Below, piece by piece: positions 22,957 through 39,788 of a stretch of DNA of 64,000 bases; position 1 is the stretch's first letter, and every line of letters starts with the position of its first letter. This stretch comes from Pedobacter helvus (lineage in GTDB: Bacteria; Bacteroidota; Bacteroidia; Sphingobacteriales; Sphingobacteriaceae), in NCBI RefSeq assembly GCF_005925325.1, contig NZ_SRMP01000001.1, positions 248,001-312,000 on the forward strand. Direction: 5' to 3'. A program made the translations under genes and the position numbers. The notes under the pieces are model-generated. The model had not been told where the DNA came from. It was given only the letters and a program-made list of their open reading frames with translations, and searched no databases.

Positions 22957-24135
22957 TTAGAAGTTGAATTTGCCTTGATACCTACGCAATGCTTCGATAT
23001 AATAATAATCTGCGTAATTTATAGGCACATCAATTTCAGACTTTGCTGGACGGTGGCCTGTGCTATGTTCTAAAATAAAACCGTAGTTATCGCCAAGTTT
23101 ACTGATATAAGCAGTACTTAACGAACGTAAGATTTTATCAGCCGCCGCCTTATAAGTCTTTGCATTTTTGCTATATTTTGCTAATTCGTACAATGCTGAT
23201 GAAGTAATTGCCGCCGCTGAAGCATCTCTAGACACATTCGGAATTTCCGGATCATTATAATCCCAATACGGTATACCATCAGCTGGTGTACTTTTATCAT
23301 TAAGGATATATTTAGCGATCGCATCTGCTTGAGCTAAGTATTTAGGATTTTTAGTGTAACGGAACATCAAAGTATAACCATACAATCCCCAAGCTTGGCC
23401 TCTAGCCCAAGATGACTCATTCGCATAACCTTGTGCTGTTGTTTTCTTAATTACCCCTCCTTTTTCTGCATCATAATCTACCACGTGGTAAGAACTGAAA
23501 TCTGGACGGTAATGATGTTTGATTGTGTTATCAGCATGAGAAATCGCAATTTTATAGAAAGAAGAATCTCCAGTGAATTTGGTAGCTTCAAAAAGCAATT
23601 CCAGGTTCATCATGTTATCTATGATTACTGGATATTTCCATTTATCTCCATTATGATCCCAAGATCTTATAACGCCAGCTGTAGGATTAAACCTTGTAGA
23701 GAGCGATTTTGCTGCTTGGATAATCACAGATTTATAAGCCGTATCCTTCGTAACACGGTATCCATTACCAAACGGACAATAAATCATGAAACCTAGATCG
23801 TGCGTACCTTTATTAAATTGTTCTTTCTTAATATCCTCCGTATATTTCTTCGCTAAAGCTAACCACTTTTTATCGTTCGTTTGTTCGTAGAAATACCACA
23901 ACTCTGCCGGAAAGAAACCACTAGTCCAGTCTCTAGAAACCACCATTTTTAATTGCCCATTTTCTACGGTTCTAGGAGATACTAAATTCGGTTTTATCTT
24001 TCTAGCCGAATCTACATTCTTCACCAATACATCGGTTTGTTGCGCTGCACTCTTAAATGCTTTGGCCACATCAATTTTTTGTGCCTGTGCACCAATTGCC
24101 GCTAACAAGAGTAGGCTTGTGATCTTTAATTTCAT
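22957..24135 (-). CDS. Glycoside hydrolase family 88, unsaturated glucuronyl hydrolase
   Basis: The 392-residue enzyme releases the 4,5-unsaturated uronic acid that polysaccharide lyases leave at the non-reducing end. A signal peptide ends at AIGAQAQ, so it is periplasmic or exported. The catalytic Asp pair is visible: Asp113 in THDLGF and Asp173 in PVIIDNMMN, corresponding to Asp88 and Asp149 of the Bacillus enzyme. ARGQAWGLYG (244-253) and SRDASAAAITSSAL (302-315) complete the (alpha/alpha)6 barrel pattern. It is the last gene of the operon, 14 nt after the beta-helix protein gene. Its presence implies that a real lyase acts upstream. Confidence 0.93.
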   Translation of the reverse strand: MKLKITSLLLLAAIGAQAQKIDVAKAFKSAAQQTDVLVKNVDSARKIKPNLVSPRTVENGQLKMVVSRDWTSGFFPAELWYFYEQTNDKKWLALAKKYTEDIKKEQFNKGTHDLGFMIYCPFGNGYRVTKDTAYKSVIIQAAKSLSTRFNPTAGVIRSWDHNGDKWKYPVIIDNMMNLELLFEATKFTGDSSFYKIAISHADNTIKHHYRPDFSSYHVVDYDAEKGGVIKKTTAQGYANESSWARGQAWGLYGYTLMFRYTKNPKYLAQADAIAKYILNDKSTPADGIPYWDYNDPEIPNVSRDASAAAITSSALYELAKYSKNAKTYKAAADKILRSLSTAYISKLGDNYGFILEHSTGHRPAKSEIDVPINYADYYYIEALRRYQGKFNF

Positions 24136-24149
24136 ACGTTTTACGTTTA

Positions 24150-25658
24150 TTATTTGAGTTTAGTTCTATCTTCCAGTTGTTTGATATACAATGATGGCGC
24201 AACAGTTGCCTTACTATTTAAGAGCTGCCAATTACCATCAGGTCTGCCTTTCAGCCTTCCTTCGCTTTTTTCTGCCTTAATACCGATAGCGTAGTTATTT
24301 CCACTTACGTAAGGATTTTGAACTGTTACTTTTCTTGCTTCGCAATTCCAGAGCACTTGCGTTACCCCAGACCAACCATGCCCGGTACCCCAGTTTCCTC
24401 GATCTTGTACATTGATATCTCCATCGGTAATGATATTGTCGTAAAGTGTGCCCACAGCCCAACGATGGTGAGGACCAATATCTGCCTTTGCGTTAGTTGC
24501 TTTACAGTTGTAAAACACATTTGGGCCAGCAACTTTAGCTCCCGTTGCATAATCGTGACGGCCTTCGTCTGCCGAACAGTCTCTTACCAAGTTCAACTGA
24601 CCATCATTATTGAACGAATATCTTCTACCACCTTCAATTTTAGATTTTGGCGCTAGCGAAGTACAATTTCTAACTGTTATTTGTTTACTATAGCTGGCAA
24701 GATTTACGCAAGAAAACCCAAAATACTTGCTCGTAATATTAGCTACCCAAGCGTTTTCTACCCTATTTAGCCATACTGCGTCCCAACCATGGTCTTCATC
24801 GGTTTCACTTTGATAGGCCGATTGCAGCAACATATTTTCAATACCTATCTCGCTAATCCGGCCTTCGAAAGTATATTTATAGATTTCGCCACCACCGTAT
24901 TGGGTTTCCATTGCCATCACTACAGGATTATCAATCGTGATTTGATTACCATTAATCGCAGTAATTTTTCTTTCGAAATACAGATGATAATCCTCTGCTT
25001 TCCATTGCACCAATCCTTCTCGAGGCTCAATTTGATCCATTTTTAAATCTTGTATCCACTTTGCGGTACCTGAACGATAAAGCATGATATCATCTCCTAC
25101 CTTAAAATTATTAGCATTGCTTACATTAATGGACTTTGCACCCACAGGAACATATGCATCGATAATCTTCATTCTACTTTGAGGAACCTCTTTTGGCTTT
25201 CCATCACCATTTACACTGATTAACTTATGCTGCCCAGTTCCAGTAGCAACCAATTTGGTGGCCAGTCCTTCGCCCCTTAACACAATACCGCTAGCGTTAA
25301 TATTAATACTTCCAGGAATTTCATAAGTTCCTTTTTTCAATAAGATAGCTCCTCTTAGACCATCCTTATTTAGTGGCATTTTAGCTACTTCGTTAATAGC
25401 TTCCTGAATTTGTTGCTGATCATTAACACCATTTGGAATAAGTTCTTTCACTACCTTTACATGAGGAATCTCCTTATTTCCTTGATGATAACCGACGTTA
25501 CTAAAATCTGGAATAATATCGCCTTTGGCATCGGACAGGTAAGTTAAACGACCATCCTTTGTCAATTTTATAAAATTGATTTTCTGCTGCTGTGCCAAAA
25601 CGTTGGAGAAAGGTATGGAAAGCAAAATAAAAGCTAGTATAACAGATTTAATGTTCAT
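24150..25658 (-). CDS. Secreted right-handed beta-helix protein, probable polysaccharide-active enzyme
   Basis: The 502-residue protein has a signal peptide ending VLAQ and a repetitive central region of short hydrophobic turns (for example SGIVLRGEG, ITVRNCTSL, LNLVRDCSA, NVFYNCKAT) typical of right-handed parallel beta-helices in lyases and epimerases. GVNDQQQIQEAINEV near 80-93 is the N-terminal cap of the pectate-lyase superfamily. Conserved-looking DIGPHHRWAVGTLYDN and VQDRGNWGTGHGW could hold the active site. I cannot assign a CAZy family. It sits between the alginate-lyase-fold gene (1 nt away) and GH88, so it may be a second lyase, a GH28-like hydrolase or an epimerase. Confidence 0.75.
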   Translation of the reverse strand: MNIKSVILAFILLSIPFSNVLAQQQKINFIKLTKDGRLTYLSDAKGDIIPDFSNVGYHQGNKEIPHVKVVKELIPNGVNDQQQIQEAINEVAKMPLNKDGLRGAILLKKGTYEIPGSININASGIVLRGEGLATKLVATGTGQHKLISVNGDGKPKEVPQSRMKIIDAYVPVGAKSINVSNANNFKVGDDIMLYRSGTAKWIQDLKMDQIEPREGLVQWKAEDYHLYFERKITAINGNQITIDNPVVMAMETQYGGGEIYKYTFEGRISEIGIENMLLQSAYQSETDEDHGWDAVWLNRVENAWVANITSKYFGFSCVNLASYSKQITVRNCTSLAPKSKIEGGRRYSFNNDGQLNLVRDCSADEGRHDYATGAKVAGPNVFYNCKATNAKADIGPHHRWAVGTLYDNIITDGDINVQDRGNWGTGHGWSGVTQVLWNCEARKVTVQNPYVSGNNYAIGIKAEKSEGRLKGRPDGNWQLLNSKATVAPSLYIKQLEDRTKLK

Positions 25659-25659
25659 T

Positions 25660-26823
25660 CTAAAACCAAATTATAGGGTGTCTAATTGGTAAGTTTCTGA
25701 TCACTTCCTCGTTAGTTGGTTTTAAATCTAGGCTCTTCCAAGTATTAAACCAATTTTTCTCGCCAAAGTAATTCGCTCCAAACAACAAAAATGGTTGTGC
25801 TACTGGCCAATTTTCCCAAAACATCACATCAGGCTTTAAAGTCCACTTAGATTTATCAGCAATATATGGATACAAATAATCCAAACCTTTTCTAATCGAT
25901 TTTCCATCTGGTGTTTGGTATGTCCATAGGTTATCTTTAGGTGTTGATAGGATTTGGCAAAGCATCACCATTGCATCTAAATTAAAGATAGAGTAACCAT
26001 ACGGTTTAGTACGTGCCAATTCTAAAGGAAAACCACCATCAGCAGCCATTTGATTAGGTAGAAATACATTTTTATAGCGTAATCTCAATGTATCTAATAT
26101 CGGTTGATCGTTTACCAGCTTAGCAAAGGAAGCTACCTGCATTGCCCAAGTGGTGCCATGATTGTTTTTGGCATTTTTTTCTGCGATACCGTTCTTACTT
26201 GTATTCAACCAAAGGATATAGTCGGTGAACCATTTTTTAATTGTAGCTAAATTGGCTTTATCGAAAGATTTGGCTTTCTCCATTACGATAATACCTTGCG
26301 CTACTTCCATTAAGTGGATAGAGTCGATAATGCCCCAACTTCTTCCGGCATATAAGCCTTTTACCGCCTGAGCATAAGCCAAATTGGGGTTCATTAAAGT
26401 CGATGGATCTACGAACCAAGCCTTTAAATGAACAATCGCTTGTTTTACATATTTTTCATCGCCTGTGATTTTATAAGCTGATGCTAGAGCACCAATAATT
26501 TCGCTAAACCTAATCATCGCATAACGGTGAGCCACAAAGTTATCGGGGTTGGTCTCACCATCTCTAGTCACATAAGGTCCATTTGGATTTGCTGGATTAG
26601 GCCACCAATAATCGCCTTCTGAAAAGAAATCGTGTTTACCACCAGTGCTGCGAGGCGAGCTTTCTGTGGTTACGGTAACTGTTTTTTGCTGCATCGCCCA
26701 CACTGCTTCTTTTAAAACCTGTGCTTTTAATATAGCCGTAGCTTGCGTTTTAAAGGTATTTTGAGCAAAGCTTATATTTATTGTTGCCACAAATAGTAGC
26801 ATCGTCCCTAACTGTCTCTTCAT
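25660..26823 (-). CDS. Alginate/glucuronan lyase-fold enzyme, PL38 or PL5-related
   Basis: The 387-residue secreted protein, starting at the ATG at 26823 (the upstream TTG is rejected), has a signal peptide and an (alpha/alpha) toroid body of the Alginate_lyase (PF05426) type. Signature parts are DYWWPNP near 75, NNHGTTW at 220-226 (the Asn-His catalytic neighbourhood) and RTKPYGYSIFNLD near 272, with the candidate catalytic tyrosine in YGY. PL5 acts on alginate and PL38 on glucuronan and alginate. With GH88 downstream and GH2 upstream, a uronic-acid polysaccharide substrate is inferred. A two-hairpin repeat lies just upstream. Confidence 0.8.
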   Translation of the reverse strand: MKRQLGTMLLFVATINISFAQNTFKTQATAILKAQVLKEAVWAMQQKTVTVTTESSPRSTGGKHDFFSEGDYWWPNPANPNGPYVTRDGETNPDNFVAHRYAMIRFSEIIGALASAYKITGDEKYVKQAIVHLKAWFVDPSTLMNPNLAYAQAVKGLYAGRSWGIIDSIHLMEVAQGIIVMEKAKSFDKANLATIKKWFTDYILWLNTSKNGIAEKNAKNNHGTTWAMQVASFAKLVNDQPILDTLRLRYKNVFLPNQMAADGGFPLELARTKPYGYSIFNLDAMVMLCQILSTPKDNLWTYQTPDGKSIRKGLDYLYPYIADKSKWTLKPDVMFWENWPVAQPFLLFGANYFGEKNWFNTWKSLDLKPTNEEVIRNLPIRHPIIWF

Positions 26824-26843
26824 TATTACCAATTTAAAATACG

Positions 26844-26907: not shown

Positions 26908-29373
26908 TTACTTTTCAATCATTAAAAATTCCGTCGGCAAACCATTTGAACTTACTGAAACCACATTCTTTTGCTTATTTGTTTTTAAGCTAATTAGAGC
27001 TCTGCCATTATAAAGCTGAACTTTAGAAGAGGCAGTAGAAGTTCCCTGATCTTTAATCAATTCACCATCTCCAAGTAAATTGAAATTCACTTCTGTAGCA
27101 GCATCTAAACAAAGTACATTATTGGCGTCATAAGCTTTAACTTCAACTGTAGCCATACCGTTAGTTTCGCTTACTTTTTTAAGTACCAACTTAGCTGGCT
27201 TAGCCCATTTATCAGTTTGATATTCTTGCGTAATTTCATCAGTAACTGTTACTTTTCCTTTTTTAGCAACTACCTTGAAAGTATAAGTGCCTTTTTGCAT
27301 TGGTACCGACCAACGTAAGCCCGCTGCAGGAAAATCTTGACTATTTCGTTTTTTCAAACCAAAGCTTTTACCATTTACGAATAGCTCGGCTTCATCGCAA
27401 TTGGAGTATACCTTCACCATTTTTTCTTCACCTTCGGCACCCCAACGCACTGGCCAAGAGTGACCATAAATATGTGCCATTGGCGTATTCGTCCAATACG
27501 ATTGGAAGATATAGAAGGATTCCTTTTTGGTAAAGTCACGCTCTACCACACCTTTTTGGTTCACATAAGGTACCGGATTTTCCGGACGGATTGGTGTGCT
27601 AAAATCTTTAAATGGCCAATAAGCAGTACCAGTTAACCAAGGCATGGTTTCTTGTTCTTTTAAATGCCAGTCAATTAAATTGGCGATGTAACTTTCGCTC
27701 CAATCACCATCCTTACTTACTCTTGCGCCACCTCCATAAAGCGAAGCATCACCCGCTCTTTCATCGGCACCACCACCCTGTTTAATCTTTAATAAAGCAT
27801 TATCTGGGTTTTCTGAGTGACGACGAGCATGACTATCTCCACCCCACTCTACATGCAAGAAACGGTCTGACTTATCAAATTCCGATTTAGAAACATCTTT
27901 ATATTCGGTGTAATTACCACGATACCATCCTGCCCAGATTGAAGGTGAATACACATCTACAATATCCCTACAGAAATCGCAACGTCTAATGGCTGTGCTT
28001 CTTGATGGATCTAGTTTGTGAGATAAATTATTCAGTTCTTTCATATAAGTTCTGATTTTTTCTTTGTCGAACTCGCTGAAATCTCCAGGCCAATCGTTCT
28101 CGTTACCCAATCCCCAAATGATGATAGACGGATGGTTATAATGTTGCTCGATCATATTGGTGAGCATTCTTTTGCCTTGCTCTTGGTAAACAGCGCCACC
28201 TAAACCACCACGGCACCAAGGAATTTCTTCCCAAACTAAAATACCCAAGCTATCGCATAAATCTAAAATGATACGTGATTGCTGATAATGTCCCAAACGA
28301 ATGAAATTCACCCCCATTTCTTTCATCATCTTCATTTCCGTAACCATCATTTCTTCGGTCATGGCGGCTGCTACACCTGCATGGTCTTCGTGTCTATGCG
28401 TACCGCGTAACAACACTCTTTTTCCATTTAAAGTAAATGGACCTTTCTTCACAAACTCGAAATGCCTGAAACCTATCTTTTGGATTGCGTTGTAAGTTTG
28501 TCCGTTGGCTGTTACAGTTAATTTTACTTCATACTGTTGTGGAGTTTCTACCGACCACAATTTTGGTGACCTTACATTAGTTTCCACCAACAATTCATCA
28601 TCATTAAAGCTTGAGATATTTTTAGTAGCGTTGAAAACAGTCTTCCCATTTGGATCAACCAAGGTGATTTTAACCGCAGCATCTTTTAGGTTATCCTGAT
28701 TTAGAAAACGAGCTTTTACAGTCAATTTCCCTTGAGCTCCTTTTACATCAACTGTTGCATGTGCAAATACTTTGTCTACAGCCAACTGCGGATTATAAAC
28801 CAGATTGAGATAGCGGTAAATGCCTCCATAAACGTTAAAATCCGATAGGCTTGAAGGCATCATTTCCAAATCACGAGAGTTATCGCAACGGATAATCACC
28901 GGAACTTTACCCTTAAATTGTGTTTTAAACAATGGCGACTTTTTAAAAGCTGCAACGGCATCAGTAATATCGGCTGTCCATTCATCGTAGCCGCCAACGT
29001 GTTCCGCAACTTTAGTGGTATGGATATAAACCTGTGTTTTTTGTCCGGCACCTTCAAAATGCAATAATGTTCTTCCGTTAGCGTAAGGATTTTCTATAGC
29101 CAAGTTAGTTCTATACCAACCTGGACCTTGATAATAATGCACATTTGGATCAACGGCATCGGTAGCGTTGAAACAGTGAGGCAAGCTTACTTTTTGCCAA
29201 AATGGAAGTTCTTCGGGATTACCTTTCCCAACTGGGCGTACAGCTTCCCAAATACCGCCTAAATCTTGCTTTACAAATTCCCAACCTGTATTTAAACGTT
29301 GAGCTTTTTGCGCTTGTAGCGACTGATTTACGATAAGAAGAAACAGAAAAACTAATTTCAGTTGTTTGAACAT
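26908..29373 (-). CDS. Glycoside hydrolase family 2, beta-galactosidase/beta-glucuronidase type
   Basis: The 821-residue enzyme has a signal peptide (MFKQLKLVFLFLLIVNQSLQAQ), a jelly-roll sugar-binding domain, two immunoglobulin-like regions and a TIM barrel. The acid/base is Glu425 in WGLGNEND and the nucleophile Glu509 in FLHVEWGGD. A C-terminal Ig-like region follows. HYYQGPGWYRT and FRHFEFVKKGPFTLNGKRVLLRG are typical GH2 segments. GH2 members act on beta-galactosides, beta-mannosides or beta-glucuronides, and the choice cannot be made from these motifs; beta-glucuronidase would fit the neighbours. The ATG at 29373 is preferred to a frame 12 codons longer. Confidence 0.9.
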   Translation of the reverse strand: MFKQLKLVFLFLLIVNQSLQAQKAQRLNTGWEFVKQDLGGIWEAVRPVGKGNPEELPFWQKVSLPHCFNATDAVDPNVHYYQGPGWYRTNLAIENPYANGRTLLHFEGAGQKTQVYIHTTKVAEHVGGYDEWTADITDAVAAFKKSPLFKTQFKGKVPVIIRCDNSRDLEMMPSSLSDFNVYGGIYRYLNLVYNPQLAVDKVFAHATVDVKGAQGKLTVKARFLNQDNLKDAAVKITLVDPNGKTVFNATKNISSFNDDELLVETNVRSPKLWSVETPQQYEVKLTVTANGQTYNAIQKIGFRHFEFVKKGPFTLNGKRVLLRGTHRHEDHAGVAAAMTEEMMVTEMKMMKEMGVNFIRLGHYQQSRIILDLCDSLGILVWEEIPWCRGGLGGAVYQEQGKRMLTNMIEQHYNHPSIIIWGLGNENDWPGDFSEFDKEKIRTYMKELNNLSHKLDPSRSTAIRRCDFCRDIVDVYSPSIWAGWYRGNYTEYKDVSKSEFDKSDRFLHVEWGGDSHARRHSENPDNALLKIKQGGGADERAGDASLYGGGARVSKDGDWSESYIANLIDWHLKEQETMPWLTGTAYWPFKDFSTPIRPENPVPYVNQKGVVERDFTKKESFYIFQSYWTNTPMAHIYGHSWPVRWGAEGEEKMVKVYSNCDEAELFVNGKSFGLKKRNSQDFPAAGLRWSVPMQKGTYTFKVVAKKGKVTVTDEITQEYQTDKWAKPAKLVLKKVSETNGMATVEVKAYDANNVLCLDAATEVNFNLLGDGELIKDQGTSTASSKVQLYNGRALISLKTNKQKNVVSVSSNGLPTEFLMIEK

Positions 29374-29486
29374 ACAATTTAATTTATTTGGTTGACCAAT
29401 TGGAACCATGAAGCTACAAAACCTAATTTATTCTACAAATAGCGACTTAAGAAAAAGACATAAATGTTCACGGACGCTTTACTTAT

Positions 29487-32153
29487 CTACTTTATTCTTT
29501 TCACTTGTAAAGCATTTAACACCGGTTTACCTGCTAAACTTTTAAAGCTTAACCTAATTCCCTTTTCATCTGTTACCACGCACTCAAACTTACTTTCCAC
29601 ACTTTTAGCAATCCCATATTTCGCGGCGATATTCAGTCCTTTAATGATTAACCTATCATTCAAATAAACATCAAATATGCGTTGTGGAGGTACTTCTTTT
29701 CCTTCTGCAATTAAACTATCCAAATTATACGGTAGAACAGACTGAATTCCATTGCCCATTAGCTCTGCAAAATGTAAAGTCACTTCGTATTTACCTTTAG
29801 GAACTACCATTTCAAAAGCATCTAAACCCACTATTTGTGTTTGATAAATCGGATCATTTAAAGTCCCCTTGATATCTTTATCAGCACCGTATTGTTGTCT
29901 GCTACTATTCTTGATCTTGAAGGGTTCGCCTCCAACAGTCCCCCAACTTCCCTTTGTAAACACCTGGCTTGGCAACCAAATTTGATTTTTGTCATCTATA
30001 AATTGACGTTGAGAACCCAATAAAATATTGAAAGAATGAGTGCTATTGAACAAGCTTTGGGGCTGTAAAACAAAATCAATTAACGACTTATCTTTAATCA
30101 TTTTACCATCTTTTAACCCTAATGCTTCTAATTCATTTTTACCAGATTTAAATTCGATTTTCCAATTCGCCACATGATCTATTACAGGTTTTTTATCTTG
30201 TTTAACGCCATTTACTATTAAAATTACACTATCTAAATTGGTAATTACACTAAGGTCTTGCCTTGTATTAGTTGCGCTTCTTAATTTCCAAGAACCATCT
30301 CCTATTTTCACATAAGGTTGTTTATTAAAATAGGCTTTGTAAAGGAAGTAGGTATTTTTCGGCTGTCTATCTAGTGTCAGCAACCCTTTATTATTAATGC
30401 TTGGCATGGTCTCGCTTCTAGTCTCTGAACTAAAATCTGATAAATTCCAAGCCGCTGCTCCAGCAATAAACTGACGCTTTAAAATATCTTTGATATAAAT
30501 CTGATGATACTCCATTCCATAAGCCAAACTCTTGTCAAAACGAATTGGATTTTCGGCATGTATTCTTGGATCTACATCTGCCCCATATTCTGTGATGATT
30601 AGAGGCTTATCTGGCATTGCAGCATGTATTTTGTCTAAGTTTGGTCCAAAATCTTCTGACTTACCACCATACCAACCTTGGTACAAATTCCAGCCAACGA
30701 TCATTGGAATTTTAACTAAACCTGCATTCGTATAACCAGTTACATCACCATGATTGCTCATCATAGTATATCGCGTTGGGTCAGTTTTACGAGTTAAATC
30801 CTCTAACTGCTGCGCTAAATTTTCGATACTTTTTAAGTAAACCTTCTTTCTTTCTGGCTCCTTACCATACCTCATCTTCAATAAAACTTCGTTCATGTAA
30901 GCCCAAATAATCACGCTTGCATGGTTGTAATTCTGCTTGATCATTTCTAACTGCATTGCCTTGCTATTATTGTAGAAAGCTTCGTTCTCCGTAATTTCGT
31001 TTACTATCGGAATTTCTACCGATGTCAAAATCCCTAACCGATCACAAGCATCTAGTACCGCTTGATCTTGAGGATAATGCGCAACACGCAGAAAATTACC
31101 ACCCATTTCCTTCAACAGCTCTACATCTTTCACTTGCAAAGCTGATGGCACAGCATTACCCATTTTGGCAAAGTCTTGATGGCGACTAGCTCCTATTAAT
31201 TTTACCGATTTCCCATTCAAAAAGAAACCTTTATCTGCATCGAAACTGAAATAACGGAAACCTATGTTGGTTTTTACCTCATCTAAAACTTTAGCTGTTT
31301 TATAATCTATTAGCCTAGTAATTACCTGATATAGGTATGGACTTTCTGGCGACCAAAGTTTTGGTGCAGTTACGCTGATATTAGGCAATTTAAAGCTGAT
31401 ATTTTTACCTTCACTGCTAGCACTTAACCATTTTGTCTCGCCTACTTTATTACCTTCAACATCGATAAGTATGGAGTTAATCTGCAATTGTTTACTGTTT
31501 GTGTTATTAACTAACTTCCCTTCAATCTCTACAGTAGCCTTATCGTTAGTTACATTTTCAGCATGGATGTAAACTCCGTTTGTTCCATAAAGTTGGTCAA
31601 CAAAGTGCACTTGATCTACAATAACCAACGACACGTTCCTGTACAGACCACCAAAAAAAGTAAAATCGCCAGTTAAGGGAGGAATACTCTCATTATAACT
31701 GTTATCCACTTTCACTATTAGTTCGTCCTTTCCATCAAACCTTAACTGATCTAATGCTACGGTAAAACCAGTATATCCACCTATGTGGTTACCAATTTTT
31801 CTACCATTAAGATAAACTTCGGTCTCTTGGTTTGCTGCACCAAAATCGAGATATATCTTTTTGCCTTTCCAAGTATGCTGAAGGCTTAATTTCTTTTTGT
31901 AATAGCCCACGCCCCGGTAATAACCAGGTTCATCATCTAAAACATCAAAAGCATTCCACGTATGTGGGATATTGACTAATGCATATTTAAGCGAAGCAGA
32001 GCCTTTAGCATTTGGATCTTTTGAGAAATACCAATTTTGGTTGATAGAAATGGCTTTTCGGCTTTGCGATAGATTTTTATCTTGAGCTTTGGCAGACGTA
32101 AAAACTAATACGAGTATAAAAAATGACAGGAGTTTCTTGAATGTAATTGGCAT
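29487..32153 (-). CDS. Glycoside hydrolase family 2 with C-terminal malectin-like domain
   Basis: The 888-residue enzyme begins with a signal peptide (MPITFKKLLSFFILVLVFTSAKAQ). The GH2 core shows acid/base Glu422 in IIWAYMNEV and nucleophile Glu522 in PLIITEYGADVDPR. A C-terminal domain of about 150 residues with WGTVGGEPFKIKNS, YEVTLHFAELMG and RIFDVYLNDRLI matches malectin-like carbohydrate-binding domains, a common add-on in Bacteroidota GH2 proteins. It may bind the polysaccharide on the enzyme. The gene lies directly behind the surface lipoprotein and ahead of the second GH2. Exact specificity is unknown. Confidence 0.88.
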   Translation of the reverse strand: MPITFKKLLSFFILVLVFTSAKAQDKNLSQSRKAISINQNWYFSKDPNAKGSASLKYALVNIPHTWNAFDVLDDEPGYYRGVGYYKKKLSLQHTWKGKKIYLDFGAANQETEVYLNGRKIGNHIGGYTGFTVALDQLRFDGKDELIVKVDNSYNESIPPLTGDFTFFGGLYRNVSLVIVDQVHFVDQLYGTNGVYIHAENVTNDKATVEIEGKLVNNTNSKQLQINSILIDVEGNKVGETKWLSASSEGKNISFKLPNISVTAPKLWSPESPYLYQVITRLIDYKTAKVLDEVKTNIGFRYFSFDADKGFFLNGKSVKLIGASRHQDFAKMGNAVPSALQVKDVELLKEMGGNFLRVAHYPQDQAVLDACDRLGILTSVEIPIVNEITENEAFYNNSKAMQLEMIKQNYNHASVIIWAYMNEVLLKMRYGKEPERKKVYLKSIENLAQQLEDLTRKTDPTRYTMMSNHGDVTGYTNAGLVKIPMIVGWNLYQGWYGGKSEDFGPNLDKIHAAMPDKPLIITEYGADVDPRIHAENPIRFDKSLAYGMEYHQIYIKDILKRQFIAGAAAWNLSDFSSETRSETMPSINNKGLLTLDRQPKNTYFLYKAYFNKQPYVKIGDGSWKLRSATNTRQDLSVITNLDSVILIVNGVKQDKKPVIDHVANWKIEFKSGKNELEALGLKDGKMIKDKSLIDFVLQPQSLFNSTHSFNILLGSQRQFIDDKNQIWLPSQVFTKGSWGTVGGEPFKIKNSSRQQYGADKDIKGTLNDPIYQTQIVGLDAFEMVVPKGKYEVTLHFAELMGNGIQSVLPYNLDSLIAEGKEVPPQRIFDVYLNDRLIIKGLNIAAKYGIAKSVESKFECVVTDEKGIRLSFKSLAGKPVLNALQVKRIK

Positions 32154-32213
32154 TAAGTAAAATGTGTTAAAAAACCATCCCAATAAATTTTATTGAGATG
32201 GTTTCATTGCTAT

Positions 32214-32732
32214 TTATTTAACTTCTAAAAAGCGTTTAAAAGCTTGTGTAAACGTGCCAACAGTATATTGCGCACTGTTATTTTGAACTAAATTAATCTC
32301 AATTCTTCTCGTACCCGCTACACTGCTATTCAACACCTTAAAATAAATGGTATCTATTTTAGCTTTTGCCTGAGAAAAATTCAGGCTATAAACGCCATTA
32401 GTTGCCTGTATGGGATTTCCACTTTTATCTACTACGCTAAAGTCTTGTCCTAACACTGCCGGATTTGCAATACCAGTAGTTACTAATGTAAAATGTGCAG
32501 CAGCATCGTAATTACGCACAAATGATGAGTGGAACTGCACTGGAAACTTTACTAACGTAGTTTGTGTTCTATTTACCGATTCAGTAGCGGTATTGTTCCA
32601 TGGCAAGAAACCTGCGTAATAAAAATGATCATAGCCATCGGCTCCCACTGGCCCATCTGGATCATCTTTTTCGCAAGAAGAGAATGCAATTAAAGATGAT
32701 AGGAGTAATATTAATATTTTGTGTTTTTTCAT
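32214..32732 (-). CDS. Surface lipoprotein, probable glycan-binding protein
   Basis: The 172-residue lipoprotein has lipobox IAFSSC (Cys20), an acidic stretch DPDGPVGADGYD just after the anchor (a surface-export-type signal in Bacteroidota), and a beta-rich domain with KVLNSSVAGTRRIEINL. In SusCD loci the gene after SusD usually encodes a surface glycan-binding protein, and the DUF4843/DUF1735-like size and layout would fit, but no family is certain. Spacing to SusD is 21 nt, so it is in the same operon. Confidence 0.65.
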   Translation of the reverse strand: MKKHKILILLLSSLIAFSSCEKDDPDGPVGADGYDHFYYAGFLPWNNTATESVNRTQTTLVKFPVQFHSSFVRNYDAAAHFTLVTTGIANPAVLGQDFSVVDKSGNPIQATNGVYSLNFSQAKAKIDTIYFKVLNSSVAGTRRIEINLVQNNSAQYTVGTFTQAFKRFLEVK

Positions 32733-32753: not shown

Positions 32754-34391
32754 TTACTGCCAGCCTTTGTTTTGTGTTACATTATTATCACTCAAAGTGA
32801 TTTCGTTTAACGGCACTGGATATAGATAATCTCTAGCTGGGTTCCATTTTCTTTTAGTAGCATCTTCTACTACCAACACACCATCTGCGTTAAGCACCAA
32901 AGCAGATGCGTTAGTACCTACCCATTCGCTTGCGATGTACTTACCACCTAAAATTGGTTTTGCCATAACTACTTCGGCTGTTTTCCATCTAAGCAGATCA
33001 CCATATCTGAAACCTTCTAGAGCTAACTCTACCGTTCTTTCTCGCCTTATTTCATCCCTCATGCTTAAATTGTTAACAGTAACAAAAGCATTGGTTAAAC
33101 GTGGAGCAAAACCCGCTCTTGTACGCAAAGCATTAACAGTTAAGTTCAAATCTGCGTCAGAAATACTTTCGGTAAGCTCATATTTAGCCTCCGCATAAAT
33201 CAACAGTACCTCTGCGTAACGTATCAAGTTCTTTTGTACTGTTGCATTGTTATTAGTTGCCCAATCGGCAGCATCAAAACCTTTTTTACCAGCATAGGCC
33301 GTTCTAGAACCTAAAGCAGTTTGCGGTACCCACGGACGTTGATAAGATTGCTCTCCAGAACGATATAACAAAGTATTGATACGAGGATCTCTATTATCCA
33401 ATATAGTATTGTAACTCGTCTCATTAGCCTCTGGAACGAACAAAGTTGATCTCGTTGCCGTAGGTGTTTGATCTGAATTCCAAGCAGGTAGTCCATCTGT
33501 ATACAAGTACTGACGAATAAGATTTCTGGTTGGTGCAATCCTTCCATTTTCCAAATCTCTGGAAGTGTTGTGCGTTAAAATAGTAAGCGCATATTGTTTC
33601 ATCAGCAAGTTTTCAGTATTACTCATACCATCACCAGCGTGGGTAAATTCTCCCAAATAACTGTTGAACAAAGTATGTCCCTGCCCCATTACCGAGGTTG
33701 CAGCCGCTACAGCAATGTTCAAATGATCTTGCCACCCAGCAAGGTTATTGAACTTTGCAGTTGTTCCTTCCATTAAGCCAACCCTAGCTTTTAAAGCCCA
33801 GGCTGTACTTTTTGTGATACGACCATATTGTGCAGCTGGCAACGCAGCTCTAGTTGGCAACCAGGTTACAGCAAAATCTAAATCTTCGTAGATCGTTTTT
33901 GAAACTGTAGCCCTCGGTGCTCTCGGCATTTTTAAATCTGGATCATTGATCCCAAGCGTTCTTAGCACCAAAGGAACATCGCCATATTTTTCAATCAGCA
34001 TAGCGTAAGCGTAAGCTCTAAAAAAGCGAGCCTCTGCAAAATACCTGTTTCTAATGGCATCGGTTACTTTAGCCGTACCGCCCTTCTCTAAAATATTATT
34101 GGCGGTAAAAATCATCTGATAAGGGTTGCTCCAATCACCAGAAGTTGCGGGAATGCCTCTATTTCCAGTACTGATTGCATCTATATTCTGTCCGGTGTTA
34201 TCATCTGCTCTATTGTCGATAGTATGACCAGCCATTTGCTGATATAGCCTATTGGCTGCATTTTGAAGATCGGCTTCCGTATTCCAATATCCAGTATCGG
34301 CAAAATTCGTTTCTGGCACCCTATCTAATTTGGTACAGCTGGCCAAAATAGCTCCAGCAAAAAATATGATTAATAGTTTATTTCTGTTCAT
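32754..34391 (-). CDS. SusD/RagB family nutrient-uptake outer-membrane lipoprotein
   Basis: The 545-residue lipoprotein (lipobox ILASC, Cys19) has the N-terminal SusD segment FADTGYWNTEADLQNAANRLY, the tetratricopeptide-like FFRAYAYAMLIEKYGDVPLV and the RagB C-terminal RDEIRRERTVELALEGFRYGDLLRW block with DYLYPVPLNEITL. SusD lies as a lid over its SusC partner and captures the oligosaccharide on the cell surface. It starts 11 nt after the SusC stop. Confidence 0.95.
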   Translation of the reverse strand: MNRNKLLIIFFAGAILASCTKLDRVPETNFADTGYWNTEADLQNAANRLYQQMAGHTIDNRADDNTGQNIDAISTGNRGIPATSGDWSNPYQMIFTANNILEKGGTAKVTDAIRNRYFAEARFFRAYAYAMLIEKYGDVPLVLRTLGINDPDLKMPRAPRATVSKTIYEDLDFAVTWLPTRAALPAAQYGRITKSTAWALKARVGLMEGTTAKFNNLAGWQDHLNIAVAAATSVMGQGHTLFNSYLGEFTHAGDGMSNTENLLMKQYALTILTHNTSRDLENGRIAPTRNLIRQYLYTDGLPAWNSDQTPTATRSTLFVPEANETSYNTILDNRDPRINTLLYRSGEQSYQRPWVPQTALGSRTAYAGKKGFDAADWATNNNATVQKNLIRYAEVLLIYAEAKYELTESISDADLNLTVNALRTRAGFAPRLTNAFVTVNNLSMRDEIRRERTVELALEGFRYGDLLRWKTAEVVMAKPILGGKYIASEWVGTNASALVLNADGVLVVEDATKRKWNPARDYLYPVPLNEITLSDNNVTQNKGWQ

Positions 34392-34402
34392 GACTGCTCT
34401 AA

Positions 34403-37400
34403 TTAAAATGTAACGTTTAAGCCAAATGCGTAAGCTCTGTAGAACGGATATGCTTGCGAGTTCACACCATTTGGAACCTCAGGATCAAACACACTCATTA
34501 CCTTGGTACTTTCCCATAAATCTTGTCCAGAGAAATAAACCCTTACATTTTGAACGTATTTTTTCTTGAATGGGATGTTATATCCGAACTGTAAGTTCTT
34601 TAAGCGGATATAACTTCCATTTTGTACCCATCTATCCGATGGTCTGTAGTTATGATCGCTTGTTTGGTACATTCTAGGGAAAAATGCATTTGGATTGTCT
34701 GGTGTCCATCTATCCATGTGAATGCTCCAAGGCATATTGGCTGTTCCATTTAGTGGAGAAAGTGTCTCCGTAGCAATCAAGAAAGATCTTTTCAATGTTC
34801 CTTGAAAAGCAATAGAGAAATCAAATCCTTTCCAGTTTAGTCCCAAATCGAAACCATAGGAATATCTAGCACTTGTATTTCCCAAGTAAACTAAATCTCC
34901 TGGATCATCGGGCGTACCTTTACCTGCATTAATTACCCCATCACCATTTAAATCAAGATATTTGATATCTCCAGCCTTAGGGCTTGCGAAAAATGGATAA
35001 ACCACTTTTGATGAATAGGCCGCTGCTTCTGCATCTGTCTGGAAAATTCCACCCGTTCTATAACCCCAAACTGAATTTAGAGGATAACCTTCAATGGCTT
35101 GCATTACACCTCCAGTACCTATTAGTCTTGCTCCGTTAAAGTCAATCAGCTGATTTTGATTATCAGAAAAGTTTAATCCAACGCTATATCCTAAAGCACC
35201 AACTTTATCTCTCCATCTTACATTAGTTTCCCAACCCCAGTTCTTTAAGGTTCCGCCATTTACTCTAGGTACATCAACACCGACAATAGATGGCAAATTA
35301 ACATTCACAAACATGTTGATGTTTCTATTTTCGTAAACCTCGAAAGCCCCTGTTAACTTCTCTTTAAAGAAACCAAAATCTAAACCTAAGTTTGCTGATT
35401 GTACAGTTTCCCAAGTTTTACCTATTGATGGTAGTTGTTGTTGATAAAAGTAATTGGCTCTACCTCCGTTTAAAACTAAACTATTACCGGGAACCAACAC
35501 CGGGATGTAATCGTAATTGCCAACACCGCCCCCTACTGCGTTACCCATACGTCCCCAAGAACCTCTAATTTTTAAGTTTGAAATTGGCTTGATGTTATCT
35601 TTAATAAAATTTTCTTCACTAATTCTCCATCCAGCAGATACTGAAGGGAAAAAAGTCCATCTTGCTTTAGGATCTAATCTTGAGCTCCCATCGTAACGGA
35701 AAGTAGCTTCTAGTAGGTATTTTTCAGCGTAGTTATAATTGAACCTTCCAAAAAGCGAAGCAAAAGCGAATGTCTCCACGTTATCTCCAGCAGTTTTATT
35801 TAACGGATCAGCAAAGTTTAGACTGAAAGTGTCGTTACTATACAAACCTGTAGCACCAGCAGTAACCTCGTCTTTACGATATTGCTCGTAAGAAGCACCA
35901 CCCATTACTTTGAAATTGTGCTTATCAGCTATTTGAAGGTTGTAATCTACCGTGGTTTGCAAGTTATCATAATAACCTCTGTTTTTGGTGATGGTAATTC
36001 CGTTAGGTACGTTAGCCGTAAAACGTGGCGCTTCGGTATTGCTACGCCCATACCAGTATAACGACCTTCTATCTTGTTCATAATTGAAGTTATCTTGGTT
36101 TCTCCACGCCACAGTATTGATTTGTAAACCTTTGACGAAGTTTTTGAATTTTAAATCAACCTTACCTGTAAAACTCTCGTACATTTCGCGAGTAAAACCG
36201 CCGTTTTTTTGAATATCAACTGCGTTGATTTGCAAATCTCCGTTATACGGCTGGCCTGTAGTATCCTCGGCAGGTGTATATAAAGATTGACGAGTTCTCA
36301 CTCTGTACAAAGCGTTAACAATTTGCCCAGTAGAAAAAGAATTTGAATTGGTAATTTGTCCGATGTAACCCACAACAAAACTAGCGTCTATATATTTGTT
36401 AAGCTGCGAATTTAAGTTAAACTTCAAGTTATACCTCGAATTATCGTCTGGTCCGTAACGCAATACACCATCGCTATTTTGATAACCCGCAGAAAGTAAA
36501 TAATTAAGTTCTTTAGCACCGCCACCTACAGAAATGGAATGGTTTTGAGAGTGATTTACGGTACTCATTCCCGCTTTAATCCAATCTGTATTATCGAAAT
36601 ATTCCCAACGGTTAGATGTTAAATTTGGACGATAATTGAAGTTTGGATTTTTTAGCCATTCGATTTGCTCGGGCGTAAATTCCCTGGCACCAGTAGCATT
36701 AAAACGAGCTTCATCTATCAAAGTCTGTTCGTCCCAAGAGTTTAAACGCTCTGGCTGACGAGCGGTGATATTAAAACTATAAAATGAGTTTAAGCTAATT
36801 CTGGTTTTACCACTAGTACTTGATTTAGTTGTTACCAAAACAACACCACCAGCCGCTCTAGCTCCATAAATAGCTGCCGCTGCCGCATCTTTAAGGAAAG
36901 AAATACTTTCGATATCATCAGGATTGATCAAGTTTAGATCCATTTGGATACCATCAACCAATACCAAAGCACCAGTGCCATTAATTGAATTAGTTCCTCT
37001 AATCCTCAAATTGTAACCTTCTTTCCCTGGCTGTCCGCCACCTCTAGTAATTACAACACCTGGAACTTGACCTTGCAAGGCTGCAGTAGCATTTGGCACA
37101 GGTCTATTTCTCAAGTCTTCGCCGCTAATAGCAGTTACTGCACCAGTAAGATTTACTTTCTTTTGCGTTCCATATCCTACAACAACTACTTCACTTAATC
37201 CTTTAGAATCTTCTTCAAGCATTACATTAAGTACAGATTTTCCATCATAGGCAATTTCCTTTTCTTTAAATCCGATACTGGTAAATACGATAACCGAGTT
37301 GGCAGGTACGTTTTTTAAAACAAATCTTCCATCAGCATCCGTACTTACAGCTTGTTGAGTTCCTTTAACTCTTACACCTACCCCTGGCAACGGAATTCCT

Positions 37401-37576
37401 TTATCATCCTTAACTACACCCGAAACATCGGCTCGCATGGTATTCAATGATTTGCTTGTGCTTAATGATAATTCTTCGCCATTGGTAAAGGCTAAAACAT
37501 TTAATTGCAGAATAACGCACCAGAACAGTGTAAACATCGTCTTCTGCAAAATCCTTTTTAATAGAATTTTACTCAT
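34403..37576 (-). CDS. SusC/RagA family TonB-linked outer-membrane protein
   Basis: The 1057-residue transporter has a signal peptide, a CarboxypepD_reg-like domain (about 50-125, GVVKDDKGIPLPGVGVRVKG), a TonB box EVVVVGYGTQ near 135, a plug with INPDDIESISFLKDAAAAAIYG, and a barrel ending in the aromatic pattern AFGLNVTF. It imports oligosaccharides with the SusD partner. A possible promoter and a PurR-like palindrome lie in the 286-nt gap before it, separating it from the membrane regulator gene. No anti-sigma interacting STN domain is seen, so control by FecR/ECF sigma is unlikely. Confidence 0.96.
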   Translation of the reverse strand: MSKILLKRILQKTMFTLFWCVILQLNVLAFTNGEELSLSTSKSLNTMRADVSGVVKDDKGIPLPGVGVRVKGTQQAVSTDADGRFVLKNVPANSVIVFTSIGFKEKEIAYDGKSVLNVMLEEDSKGLSEVVVVGYGTQKKVNLTGAVTAISGEDLRNRPVPNATAALQGQVPGVVITRGGGQPGKEGYNLRIRGTNSINGTGALVLVDGIQMDLNLINPDDIESISFLKDAAAAAIYGARAAGGVVLVTTKSSTSGKTRISLNSFYSFNITARQPERLNSWDEQTLIDEARFNATGAREFTPEQIEWLKNPNFNYRPNLTSNRWEYFDNTDWIKAGMSTVNHSQNHSISVGGGAKELNYLLSAGYQNSDGVLRYGPDDNSRYNLKFNLNSQLNKYIDASFVVGYIGQITNSNSFSTGQIVNALYRVRTRQSLYTPAEDTTGQPYNGDLQINAVDIQKNGGFTREMYESFTGKVDLKFKNFVKGLQINTVAWRNQDNFNYEQDRRSLYWYGRSNTEAPRFTANVPNGITITKNRGYYDNLQTTVDYNLQIADKHNFKVMGGASYEQYRKDEVTAGATGLYSNDTFSLNFADPLNKTAGDNVETFAFASLFGRFNYNYAEKYLLEATFRYDGSSRLDPKARWTFFPSVSAGWRISEENFIKDNIKPISNLKIRGSWGRMGNAVGGGVGNYDYIPVLVPGNSLVLNGGRANYFYQQQLPSIGKTWETVQSANLGLDFGFFKEKLTGAFEVYENRNINMFVNVNLPSIVGVDVPRVNGGTLKNWGWETNVRWRDKVGALGYSVGLNFSDNQNQLIDFNGARLIGTGGVMQAIEGYPLNSVWGYRTGGIFQTDAEAAAYSSKVVYPFFASPKAGDIKYLDLNGDGVINAGKGTPDDPGDLVYLGNTSARYSYGFDLGLNWKGFDFSIAFQGTLKRSFLIATETLSPLNGTANMPWSIHMDRWTPDNPNAFFPRMYQTSDHNYRPSDRWVQNGSYIRLKNLQFGYNIPFKKKYVQNVRVYFSGQDLWESTKVMSVFDPEVPNGVNSQAYPFYRAYAFGLNVTF

Positions 37577-37654
37577 ACAGTTAATTTGGTTTTTTATCGG
37601 TTATTGTCAAACAAATTCGACAACGTAAATATAGAAGTGTTTTCTGCTTATTCG

Positions 37655-37685
37655 CAAACCTAAAAAACACTTAAACAACTGTAAA
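37655..37685 (-). promoter_or_regulatory. Probable susC promoter
   Basis: On the minus strand -7 TAGGTTTG (37662-37655) matches TAnnTTTG exactly, with TTTA at 37685-37682 and a 19-nt spacer. A second candidate overlaps it: TTTG at 37658-37655, a 21-nt spacer and TATATTTA, giving two stacked start regions about 50-80 nt before the susC ATG. Confidence 0.5.
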
Positions 37686-37789
37686 CTAGACAATTATAAA
37701 AATTTTGATACGCTTTAATCTCAGGTACAAAAGACCATAAGTAATTGATTAGTCGCTATATGACCAACAATCCGTTTTTAGGGTTGATA

Positions 37790-37841
37790 CGTTTAAAACG
37801 CAATGAAAAATAATTGTAAAAAAAAGCGAAAACGTTTGCGT
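37790..37841. promoter_or_regulatory. PurR/LacI-like operator and neighbouring palindrome upstream of susC
   Basis: GCGAAAACGTTTGCGT at 37826-37841 contains the palindrome CGnAAACGTTTnCG, the core bound by LacI/PurR-type regulators. A second palindrome, CGTTTAAAACG, is at 37790-37800. Both lie more than 100 nt upstream of the probable susC promoter. Binding by any LacI protein is not shown. Confidence 0.4.
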
Positions 37842-37862: not shown

Positions 37863-39788
37863 TTAGGCTTTTTTGTCGAGTACAATCTTGCTCCAACCAG
37901 ACTTCCCGATACCTCGTAAGTCTTTTTTACGTTCTTCCATTACTTTTTTCACTTTAGAAGCGTAGGCCCAGCAGGTACTTTGCCTAATGCCTAGCTTCTC
38001 AGAAAGCTTATGTGAAGAAATTGTCCCCTTAGAATTGTATATCAAATAAACCAAGTAAAATGCTTTATTGATAGAAATGCGGTTATTCTCGAAAATGGTA
38101 TCGTGTAAAACAGACTCCTCGTAAGCACATTTGGTGCAGCGTCTGTTATAAGGCACTTTGCCATTGCAGTAGTTGGTGTGGCTGCACTTTAAACAAGCGT
38201 AACCGCTCTCCCATTTTAGCTCAGCTAAAAATTTGTAGCAAGCTTCTTTATCGGGATATTTTTGACTGAACTCTTCGAAATCTAGTTCTGTAGCATTAAC
38301 ACGAGCGTCAGTAACTTTCTCAATGCTGGTTTTTAAACTAATGTTATCTCTTTCCAACAGCACATTCATCCTCGATATCTCTTCAGATTGCTGCTCGAGT
38401 AGGCTATTTTTCGAAACAAGCTCTTCATTTTGCTTCTCAATCGTTTCGTTCTGTTGCTGCAAAGCGATAGCCTGTTTCTTAACTTCAATGGTACGTTGTT
38501 CTACTTTAGCTTCCAACTCTCGGTTTAGGTTGTCTTTCATTTCTGCATTTAACTGCATCTGCTTGATGATCTGTTTCTGCGCATTTTCCTTTTTACGCTT
38601 AAGAATACGTACCTGATCGCCAATGGCGAACGAAAGAAAAACCATTTCTAGCAAAAATCCAAAGCTTAAACTATAATAGCCCAACGCACCGGGAATATGT
38701 CGGGCGTAGCCCAGAATATGTACAATCTTAATTACGAAACCTAAGAATAAAAACGAATACCCTACTACAAAGAAACGGGCAGGTCTATACCGTTTTCTCC
38801 ATAAAATATAAATACCGGTCACAAAGCCTATCGACAGAGGGATGAACTCAATAAACTTATATTTAAACCAGTCGGGATTGTAAAGTAGACACACTAAGAA
38901 AAACGCCAACCTCAACAACAACACTGCATTGATCAGTTTAAAGTAGAAGGGGGCTTTCTGTTTAACGTGCAAAAGCTCCTTAGTAAAAATTAAAGCGAAT
39001 GAACTAATACAGAAAAGAGCGATACCATAAGCATATTCGTTCCAAACGGGATGTTGTGGCCAAAGATATTGATAGGCTATTCCGTCTATAGAAACTTCGT
39101 AAAGCCCAACGCTAATGATGTATAAAATGTAATAGAGATATTGTTTTCTTCGTACAGCTAAGTACATTAGCAAATTATGGAAACTGAAAATGAAAATCAT
39201 TCCATAAAACAAACCATAAGTAAGATACTCCGTTAATCCATATTGTATAAACCTCTCTACAGTCCTGAATACGATGATTACATTTACCTTATCTTTAGAC
39301 TTTACTTTGAAATAATAATAATATTCGCCTTTTTTTAGGTTTCTAATTAAAAATTCGAAGTTTTTATGACTGAAAAGACGCTCTTTAAAAACTAAATCGG
39401 CACCAGTTCTAGAATGGATATAATTACCATTTTCGTCTGGGAAATAAGCGTCTATATAATCCGTAACCTGATCAAAAAATTCAATTACACTAGACTTATC
39501 CAAATCCTCATCGAACCGAACTTTTATCCTGTACCAATAGCTAGAGTTTTGGTTATAATTTTTCGGATAATAATCTTTATTTGGGACGAATTTGTTTTGA
39601 TACGTTGCACTTGAAATAGTGTCGAAACTTAGGTTACTTTCAACGTCTTCTAGCGTATAAACTTCTGCGGATTTAAAAATATGCTCATAGCTTTTTTTAT
39701 TAAAAACAACAGGCTTTTGTGCTACAGCAAATGTGAAACAAGACAGAAATAGTAAAAAGACAGGTATACGAAATAGCATCTTAAGCAT
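37863..39788 (-). CDS. 7TMR-DISM membrane sensor fused to IS1595-type zinc ribbon and helix-turn-helix
   Basis: The 641-residue protein has a signal peptide, a periplasmic 7TMR-DISMED2-like beta domain (about 25-175), seven transmembrane helices (about 185-395), a long coiled coil (about 397-490) and a C-terminal DNA-binding module at about 505-625. The module has a zinc ribbon with CLKC and CTKC (Cys532, 535, 551, 554) followed by TIFENNRISINKAFYLVYLI and a helix-turn-helix HKLSEKLGIRQSTCWAYASKV, which is the N-terminal pattern of IS1595 transposases (PF12760). No DDE catalytic domain follows. It is probably a membrane-bound regulator of the adjacent susC operon, perhaps by direct DNA binding. 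The ATG at 39788 is used; the earlier TTG is rejected. Confidence 0.85.
   Translation of the reverse strand: MLKMLFRIPVFLLFLSCFTFAVAQKPVVFNKKSYEHIFKSAEVYTLEDVESNLSFDTISSATYQNKFVPNKDYYPKNYNQNSSYWYRIKVRFDEDLDKSSVIEFFDQVTDYIDAYFPDENGNYIHSRTGADLVFKERLFSHKNFEFLIRNLKKGEYYYYFKVKSKDKVNVIIVFRTVERFIQYGLTEYLTYGLFYGMIFIFSFHNLLMYLAVRRKQYLYYILYIISVGLYEVSIDGIAYQYLWPQHPVWNEYAYGIALFCISSFALIFTKELLHVKQKAPFYFKLINAVLLLRLAFFLVCLLYNPDWFKYKFIEFIPLSIGFVTGIYILWRKRYRPARFFVVGYSFLFLGFVIKIVHILGYARHIPGALGYYSLSFGFLLEMVFLSFAIGDQVRILKRKKENAQKQIIKQMQLNAEMKDNLNRELEAKVEQRTIEVKKQAIALQQQNETIEKQNEELVSKNSLLEQQSEEISRMNVLLERDNISLKTSIEKVTDARVNATELDFEEFSQKYPDKEACYKFLAELKWESGYACLKCSHTNYCNGKVPYNRRCTKCAYEESVLHDTIFENNRISINKAFYLVYLIYNSKGTISSHKLSEKLGIRQSTCWAYASKVKKVMEERKKDLRGIGKSGWSKIVLDKKA

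Follow-up and report, generated by a model that had tools for sequence, protein, structure and literature searches.

The polysaccharide locus in the analysed window, by which we mean the whole 64,000-nt stretch of a Pedobacter helvus contig, is very likely controlled by a membrane-bound one-component activator encoded next to it, which would act through a domesticated IS1595 transposase module that binds paired repeats. This reading is built on what sequence comparison establishes about the regulator and its relatives, namely the domains, the absence of a DDE domain, the gene neighbourhood, the conserved repeats, their spacing from the promoter and the grouping of the module with IS1595. We infer that the regulator itself binds the repeats and activates, that it responds to a glycan and that it works from the membrane as an uncleaved protein. 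The features concerned are collected in Table 1. According to the list of open reading frames, the original prediction had placed the gene correctly (37863..39788), and its strand is minus; plus-strand frame 1 across the same interval is full of stops.

Table 1. Features of the regulator, its predicted sites and the polysaccharide locus, in positions of the window
Feature	Position	Strand	Basis or detail
Regulator gene (641 aa)	37863..39788	minus	start ATG 39788; alternative start TTG 39803
7TMR-DISMED2 domain, residues 42-174	39267..39665	minus	Pfam
7TMR-DISM seven-transmembrane domain, residues 187-392	38613..39230	minus	Pfam and hydropathy
C-terminal output module, last 147 residues	37866..38306	minus	profile matches and conserved cysteines
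Predicted operator copy 1, TTGCGTTTTAAACGTATCA	37785..37803	minus	C of CGTAT at 37791
Predicted operator copy 2, CTGAGATTAAAGCGTATCA	37706..37724	minus	C of CGTAT at 37712; 79 nt after copy 1
Second conserved element, TACAG	37679..37683	minus	29 nt after copy 2
Bacteroidota-type promoter	37625..37657	minus	TTG at 37657-37655, 21 nt, TATATTTAC at 37633-37625; 79 nt after copy 2
susC, taken to be the operon's first controlled gene	34403..37576	minus	Pfam
susD	32754..34391	minus	Pfam
172-aa protein without Pfam family	32214..32732	minus	profile scan
GH2 with malectin domain	29487..32183	minus	Pfam
GH2	26908..29409	minus	Pfam
Alginate-lyase-type PF05426 protein	25660..26832	minus	Pfam
502-aa protein without Pfam family	24150..25658	minus	profile scan
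GH88-type protein	22957..24135	minus	Pfam

The N-terminal part of the regulator is that of a 7TMR-DISM receptor, as had been proposed. A Pfam scan identified the DISMED2 domain (PF07696, residues 42-174, E 1.5e-25) followed by the full-length 7TM domain (PF07695, profile positions 1-205 of 205, residues 187-392, E 2.1e-43), and the hydropathy profile shows a signal-peptide-like segment at residues 1-29 and seven transmembrane segments, all between residues 185 and 393. The 7TM domain is joined to the C-terminal module by a charged, helical-looking stretch of about 100 residues. Judging from its sequence and from weak matches of residues 394-502 to the RNase Y N-terminus in a profile scan, this linker is probably a coiled coil. 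The same Pfam scan detected no histidine kinase, receiver or AraC domain in the regulator up to E 1, in agreement with the claim that a kinase output is absent, and a scan of the regulator and of 19 neighbouring proteins revealed neither a sigma-70 region nor a FecR domain. When solved structures were searched by sequence, only two matches came up (E 0.39 and 0.6). The same genome encodes a second full-length copy of the regulator, 54% identical, at C5:669408-671273; here too a susC lies directly downstream on the same strand, 174 nt away.

The output module combines a zinc ribbon (residues 513-556) with an IS1595 helix-turn-helix (HTH) stretch (residues 569-626). The ribbon contains two CxxC pairs (C532xxC535 and C551xxC554), and all four cysteines are invariant in an alignment of 56 homologous C-termini (56/56). 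On the window regulator alone, PF12760 scores 14.4 bits (E 0.039), below its gathering score of 25.4, and NF033547 scores 28.7 bits against a cut-off of 75 (E 1.1e-6, profile positions 2-62 of 215); beside the IS1595 ribbon, Pfam otherwise gives only weak HTH matches. At E up to 0.01, PF12760 matches 54 and NF033547 matches 55 of the 56 homologous C-termini. The zinc ribbon named in the original prediction is supported by PF12760 across the homologues and by the cysteines, and the HTH by NF033547. The assignment of the module to the IS1595 type is supported, zinc and DNA binding being predicted properties. The NF033547 match stops at residue 626 of 641, its positions 63-215 are unmatched in the regulator and the chain ends where the DDE catalytic domain of a transposase would begin, which bears out the missing DDE domain. 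By domain similarity, sensor, transmembrane segments and DNA-binding domain are joined in one chain.

In the window, susC is the next open reading frame after the regulator; both are on the minus strand and the gap between them measures 286 nt, so that the regulator indeed lies directly upstream of susC, as had been claimed. Two products of the downstream genes have no Pfam family. The 502-residue protein shows a weak similarity to the BT3328 hyaluronate lyase model, scoring 38.1 bits where the cut-off is 1100, and the profile match of the 172-residue protein covers its first 27 residues only. Because the locus encodes two GH2 enzymes, a PF05426 lyase, a GH88-type protein and this distant hyaluronate-lyase-like protein, its glycan is likely a uronic-acid polysaccharide.

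Neighbours of the same type accompany the homologues. After removal of identical ends we surveyed 125 distinct module ORFs, 119 of which have a 7TMR sensor. As the original prediction implied, the regulators are associated with polysaccharide loci: susC lies less than 1 kb downstream on the same strand at 64 of the 119 7TMR regulators (within 700 nt at 58), against none of 20 controls, although many of the surveyed loci are mutually orthologous, so that locus counts are not independent events, and many control proteins are probably orthologous too, which leaves fewer than 20 independent cases. The controls were 20 of 22 paralogous 7TMR-DISM proteins from the same genus, each with a stretch of 10-14 kb in which no same-strand susC was found; one has a susC 4.2 kb away on the opposite strand, and all seven that were scanned are histidine kinases. 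Across the 125 loci, susC is the very next ORF on the same strand in 62, and SusC, SusD or a member of a glycosidase or lyase cluster occurs within four ORFs in 123 (the exceptions are L085 and L117). These clusters, formed by single linkage and each named from one Pfam-scanned representative, are GH30, GH2, GH3, GH5, GH97, GH88, PL14, alginate lyase and chondroitinase B. At all eight scanned loci that have a pair of sites and no susC, the next gene encodes GH30. Nine further 7TMR fusions (L231-L239), eight of them from other families, all have a same-strand SusC match; the nearest lies 205-3728 nt downstream in eight, and L235 has one SusC at 2921 nt and another that begins 33 nt before the end of the regulator. 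In L112 and L134, two regulators of the family stand in tandem on the same strand.

Aligning the regulator-susC gaps of 16 close orthologues brought out two direct repeats and a promoter. In the window the repeats, G-N9-CGTATCA, stand 79 nt apart upstream of the promoter; in the alignment, L041 and L105 have a degenerate second copy. Of the 49 other gaps, which include two from the aligned group (L090 and L100), 40 contain the 8-mer AAGCGTAT, against 0.1 expected from letter shuffles. When 114 sites were stacked by their CGTAT core, 108 had a G at position -10, which had not been used for picking them. We considered whether the repeats are a mere by-product of aligning orthologous gaps; this is ruled out, since they recur in other groups and before genes other than susC. 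As a bare pattern the pair is non-specific in whole genomes, with 6 matches in the window's own genome and 5 in the reversed control.

Pairs were therefore scored with matrices. A leave-out matrix was trained on all groups after removal of loci whose similarity over the last 150 residues exceeded 0.85 (in the window's own test, some members of its group remained in the training set). In 3710 control scans with permuted matrices, the 99.9% quantile was 11.5 and the highest score 13.1, whereas real pairs mostly score 25-50; those of L051-L053 score 15-18. With this matrix a pair was found beside 62 of the 64 susC-adjacent 7TMR regulators (L050 and L108 are missed) and beside 30 of the 55 7TMR regulators that have no susC within 1 kb, the other 25 having no pair within 1.2 kb. 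Among the six module ORFs without a recognised 7TMR sensor, three have a pair: L087, the propeller fusion L119 and L090, a fragment at a contig end. No pair is found near the sensor-swapped L086 and L089. In L113, L132, L162 and L170, the pair stands before a divergent susC. A second matrix, made from the window's group only (34 sites), exceeded its control maximum (11.7, the highest of 3210 permuted-matrix scans) at 28 of 47 susC-adjacent and 28 of 55 other held-out 7TMR loci, and at one of five held-out loci with other sensors.

The window's own genome gave 52 matches to the window SusC, some of them pieces of one gene, and 30 were examined. These represent 28 susC-type genes, because L326 and L329 are inner pieces of genes already represented. 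The pair is present only at the two genes that stand beside the regulators (scores 46.6 and 45.2), and the next score is 7.6. Elsewhere, L042, L045 and L049 carry a further pair about 4.7 kb downstream of the regulator (scores 26.0, 56.3 and 36.6; spacing 77, 88 and 77 nt, respectively), which suggests that more than one promoter may be controlled in these loci.

The geometry of the sites is conserved. Among 88 loci, the two repeats are spaced 76-79 or 86-92 nt apart, and 70 loci have ATCAG, ATCAA or TACAG at +29 from the second repeat. A TAnnTTT box preceded by a TTG follows that repeat at 77-80 nt in 60 loci and at 88-89 nt in 18; two of the remaining loci have a promoter match elsewhere and eight have none. 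We call the two elements the -33 and -7 boxes after the Bacteroidota promoter consensus. In 200 letter shuffles of these same sequences, any promoter match appeared in 4.5 of the 88 loci on average (10 at most), and one within the zones of 77-80 or 88-89 nt in 0.3 on average (3 at most).

The repeats thus lie about 80 and 160 nt before the -7 box and upstream of the -33 box, a placement that is usual for activators rather than for steric repressors. The two classes of promoter distance, about one helical turn apart, fit what an activator touching polymerase would need. Both observations argue against the idea that the same protein, on the same sites, represses susC until the glycan is sensed. 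Nothing in the sequence of the regulator speaks against repression, nor against release of the cytoplasmic part by proteolysis; we consider it unlikely that the system works in either of these ways, and an activator held in the membrane is the reading that we retain.

To relate the sites to the protein, we compared the HTH stretches. The motif IRQSTCW is kept in 118 of the 134 regulators examined, 92 of which have a pair scoring above 11.5 nearby. Since the other 26 have none, the helix alone does not decide. Nine diverged relatives (L050, L089 and L231-L237) have no pair downstream or before a divergent gene; L232 reaches 12.5 once upstream same-strand DNA is added, which is below the permuted maximum of 13.1. 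Slightly changed helices vary, with a pair at L061, L063, L066 and L082 and none at L079 and L088. We regard the link between helix and site as suggestive rather than strict. In L050, L232 and L237, where the regulator has a diverged helix, the gaps have CAATCGATTTCGGA in common, with one change in L232, and such a stretch is a possible candidate for a second operator type.

The 26 regulators that keep the commonest helix and lack a nearby pair could also mean that a different factor occupies the repeats and that the IS1595-like end serves to contact other proteins or RNA, as zinc ribbons can. Several observations speak against such a factor: the 26 other susC-type genes of the same genome lack the pair, the pair does occur beside L087 and L119, which have other sensors but the same C-terminal end, and a clear pair is absent at the nine relatives whose helices have diverged further. 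We regard a separate factor as quite improbable and keep the regulator itself as the predicted ligand of the repeats.

The module is widespread in the family of the window's genome. At E up to 1e-25 it occurs in 114 of 301 genomes and 12 of 25 genera, with up to three matches per genome. Judged by the best 80 of 383 relatives, the closest named genomes belong to Pedobacter (identity in the module is 93% for P. xixiisoli and 90% for P. ureilyticus), and further relatives come from Mucilaginibacter, Arcticibacter, Pararcticibacter, Hufsiella, Nubsella, Desertivirga and Chitinophaga. Across the phylum, 45 of 395 genomes have some match at E up to 1e-10; many of these matches are transposases by ORF length, and the five inspected look like transposases. 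L240:1194-1607 encodes a stand-alone protein of 137 residues consisting of zinc ribbon and HTH only.

In a tree of 70 rows rooted at the midpoint, a branch supported at 99/96 separates all sampled regulators, four with other sensors and L240 from what lies beyond it, namely the G256 ORFs, L241 and the transposases L207/L243; 19 of 21 transposases are on the far side of a 100/99 branch, and the long branches (L089, L240 and several transposases) are uncertain. By this analysis the regulators form one group within IS1595. Other sensors ahead of the module are a Reg_prop propeller with Y_Y_Y in L119 (Desertivirga arenae), two PAS domains in L089 and, read by eye, a short transmembrane segment and helix in L086 and L087. 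As these sensors fall in four separate places of the tree, either the module has been recruited repeatedly or its sensors have been exchanged. We think it probable that a single domestication in Bacteroidota made the module a general output for glycan sensing that can be swapped between 7TMR-DISM, propeller/Y_Y_Y, PAS and short-TM sensors, with an operator code of helically phased direct repeats of its own; it would thus constitute a further class of control.

That a receptor gene merely fused with a broken IS1595 copy, by chance or recently and with no function, is barely conceivable. IS1595 transposases are present in the genus, above the cut-off in 6 of 60 genomes; but the cysteines are invariant, the module is found in those 114 family genomes, is conserved across genera and forms one tree group, and the window's genome has no module match beyond the two regulator copies at E up to 10.

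Several observations concern the transposases themselves. We examined a transposon-end origin of the operator. The best inverted repeat was inspected at 11 of 31 IS1595-like ORFs, and no CGTATC core was noticed there; one end (L243) seems loosely similar to the ATCAG element. Genome G256 has ten IS1595-like matches. The nine inspected (L222-L230) encode 304-332 residues and have CELG or similar where canonical relatives have EVDE, and on either side of L226 lies a 25-nt inverted repeat that has one mismatch. These ORFs may belong to mobile elements whose catalytic site is altered, or they may represent a second domestication.

Taken as a domesticated activator, the regulator would work as follows. 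The periplasmic DISMED2 domain would sense a breakdown product of the locus's own glycan, and the 7TM bundle and coiled coil would relay the signal to the C-terminal zinc ribbon and HTH. The IS1595-derived module would bind the two G-N9-CGTATCA direct repeats in the regulator-susC gap and, once bound, would recruit RNA polymerase to the promoter, the -7 box of which lies 77-80 or 88-89 nt past the second repeat.

To our knowledge, Bacteroidota have many polysaccharide loci for most of which the regulator is not known. Here a regulator, an operator and a promoter are predicted together for a whole family of such loci, which allows regulators and loci to be matched from sequence. The system would also be an example from bacteria in which a receptor has acquired the DNA-binding module of a transposase as its output. 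In searches of the open PMC literature, we found no description of the 7TMR-DISM/IS1595 fusion, of its tie to SusCD or of its operator. If the proposal is true, it adds a further class of polysaccharide control beside the hybrid two-component, ECF/anti-sigma and SusR/AraC types.

The susCD operons are controlled, in response to a glycan signal, by hybrid two-component systems, ECF/FecR pairs, SusR and AraC regulators. The window regulator has none of the kinase, receiver, sigma, FecR or AraC domains of these systems in Pfam, so that the departure from the usual types of control asserted in the original prediction is supported. The L119 fusion shares the propeller and Y_Y_Y sensor parts of the hybrid systems but has an IS1595 output. 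IS1595 transposases likewise have an N-terminal zinc ribbon and HTH, and in the tree the module clusters with some of them; unlike them, the regulator lacks the DDE domain, is fused behind a receptor and is kept beside polysaccharide genes. With the 7TMR-DISM receptors, the window regulator has in common a DISMED2 domain and a 7TM domain leading to a cytoplasmic output. The outputs of these receptors are kinases in the paralogues scanned here and, in the literature considered, GGDEF (PMC5342196) or the ChiS domain (PMC8092284), where the window regulator has the IS1595 module. The ChiS-family sensors are likewise DNA-binding proteins with varied sensors, and the domain architectures depicted for proteobacterial genomes include 7TMR-DISM combined with the DNA-binding domain of ChiS (PMC8092284). 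Their DNA-binding domain is a different one, they are proteobacterial and the passage describing them makes no mention of SusCD loci (PMC8092284). Because the ChiS family, as depicted in that passage, pairs 7TMR-DISM with another DNA-binding domain, the principle of the window regulator has a precedent (PMC8092284).
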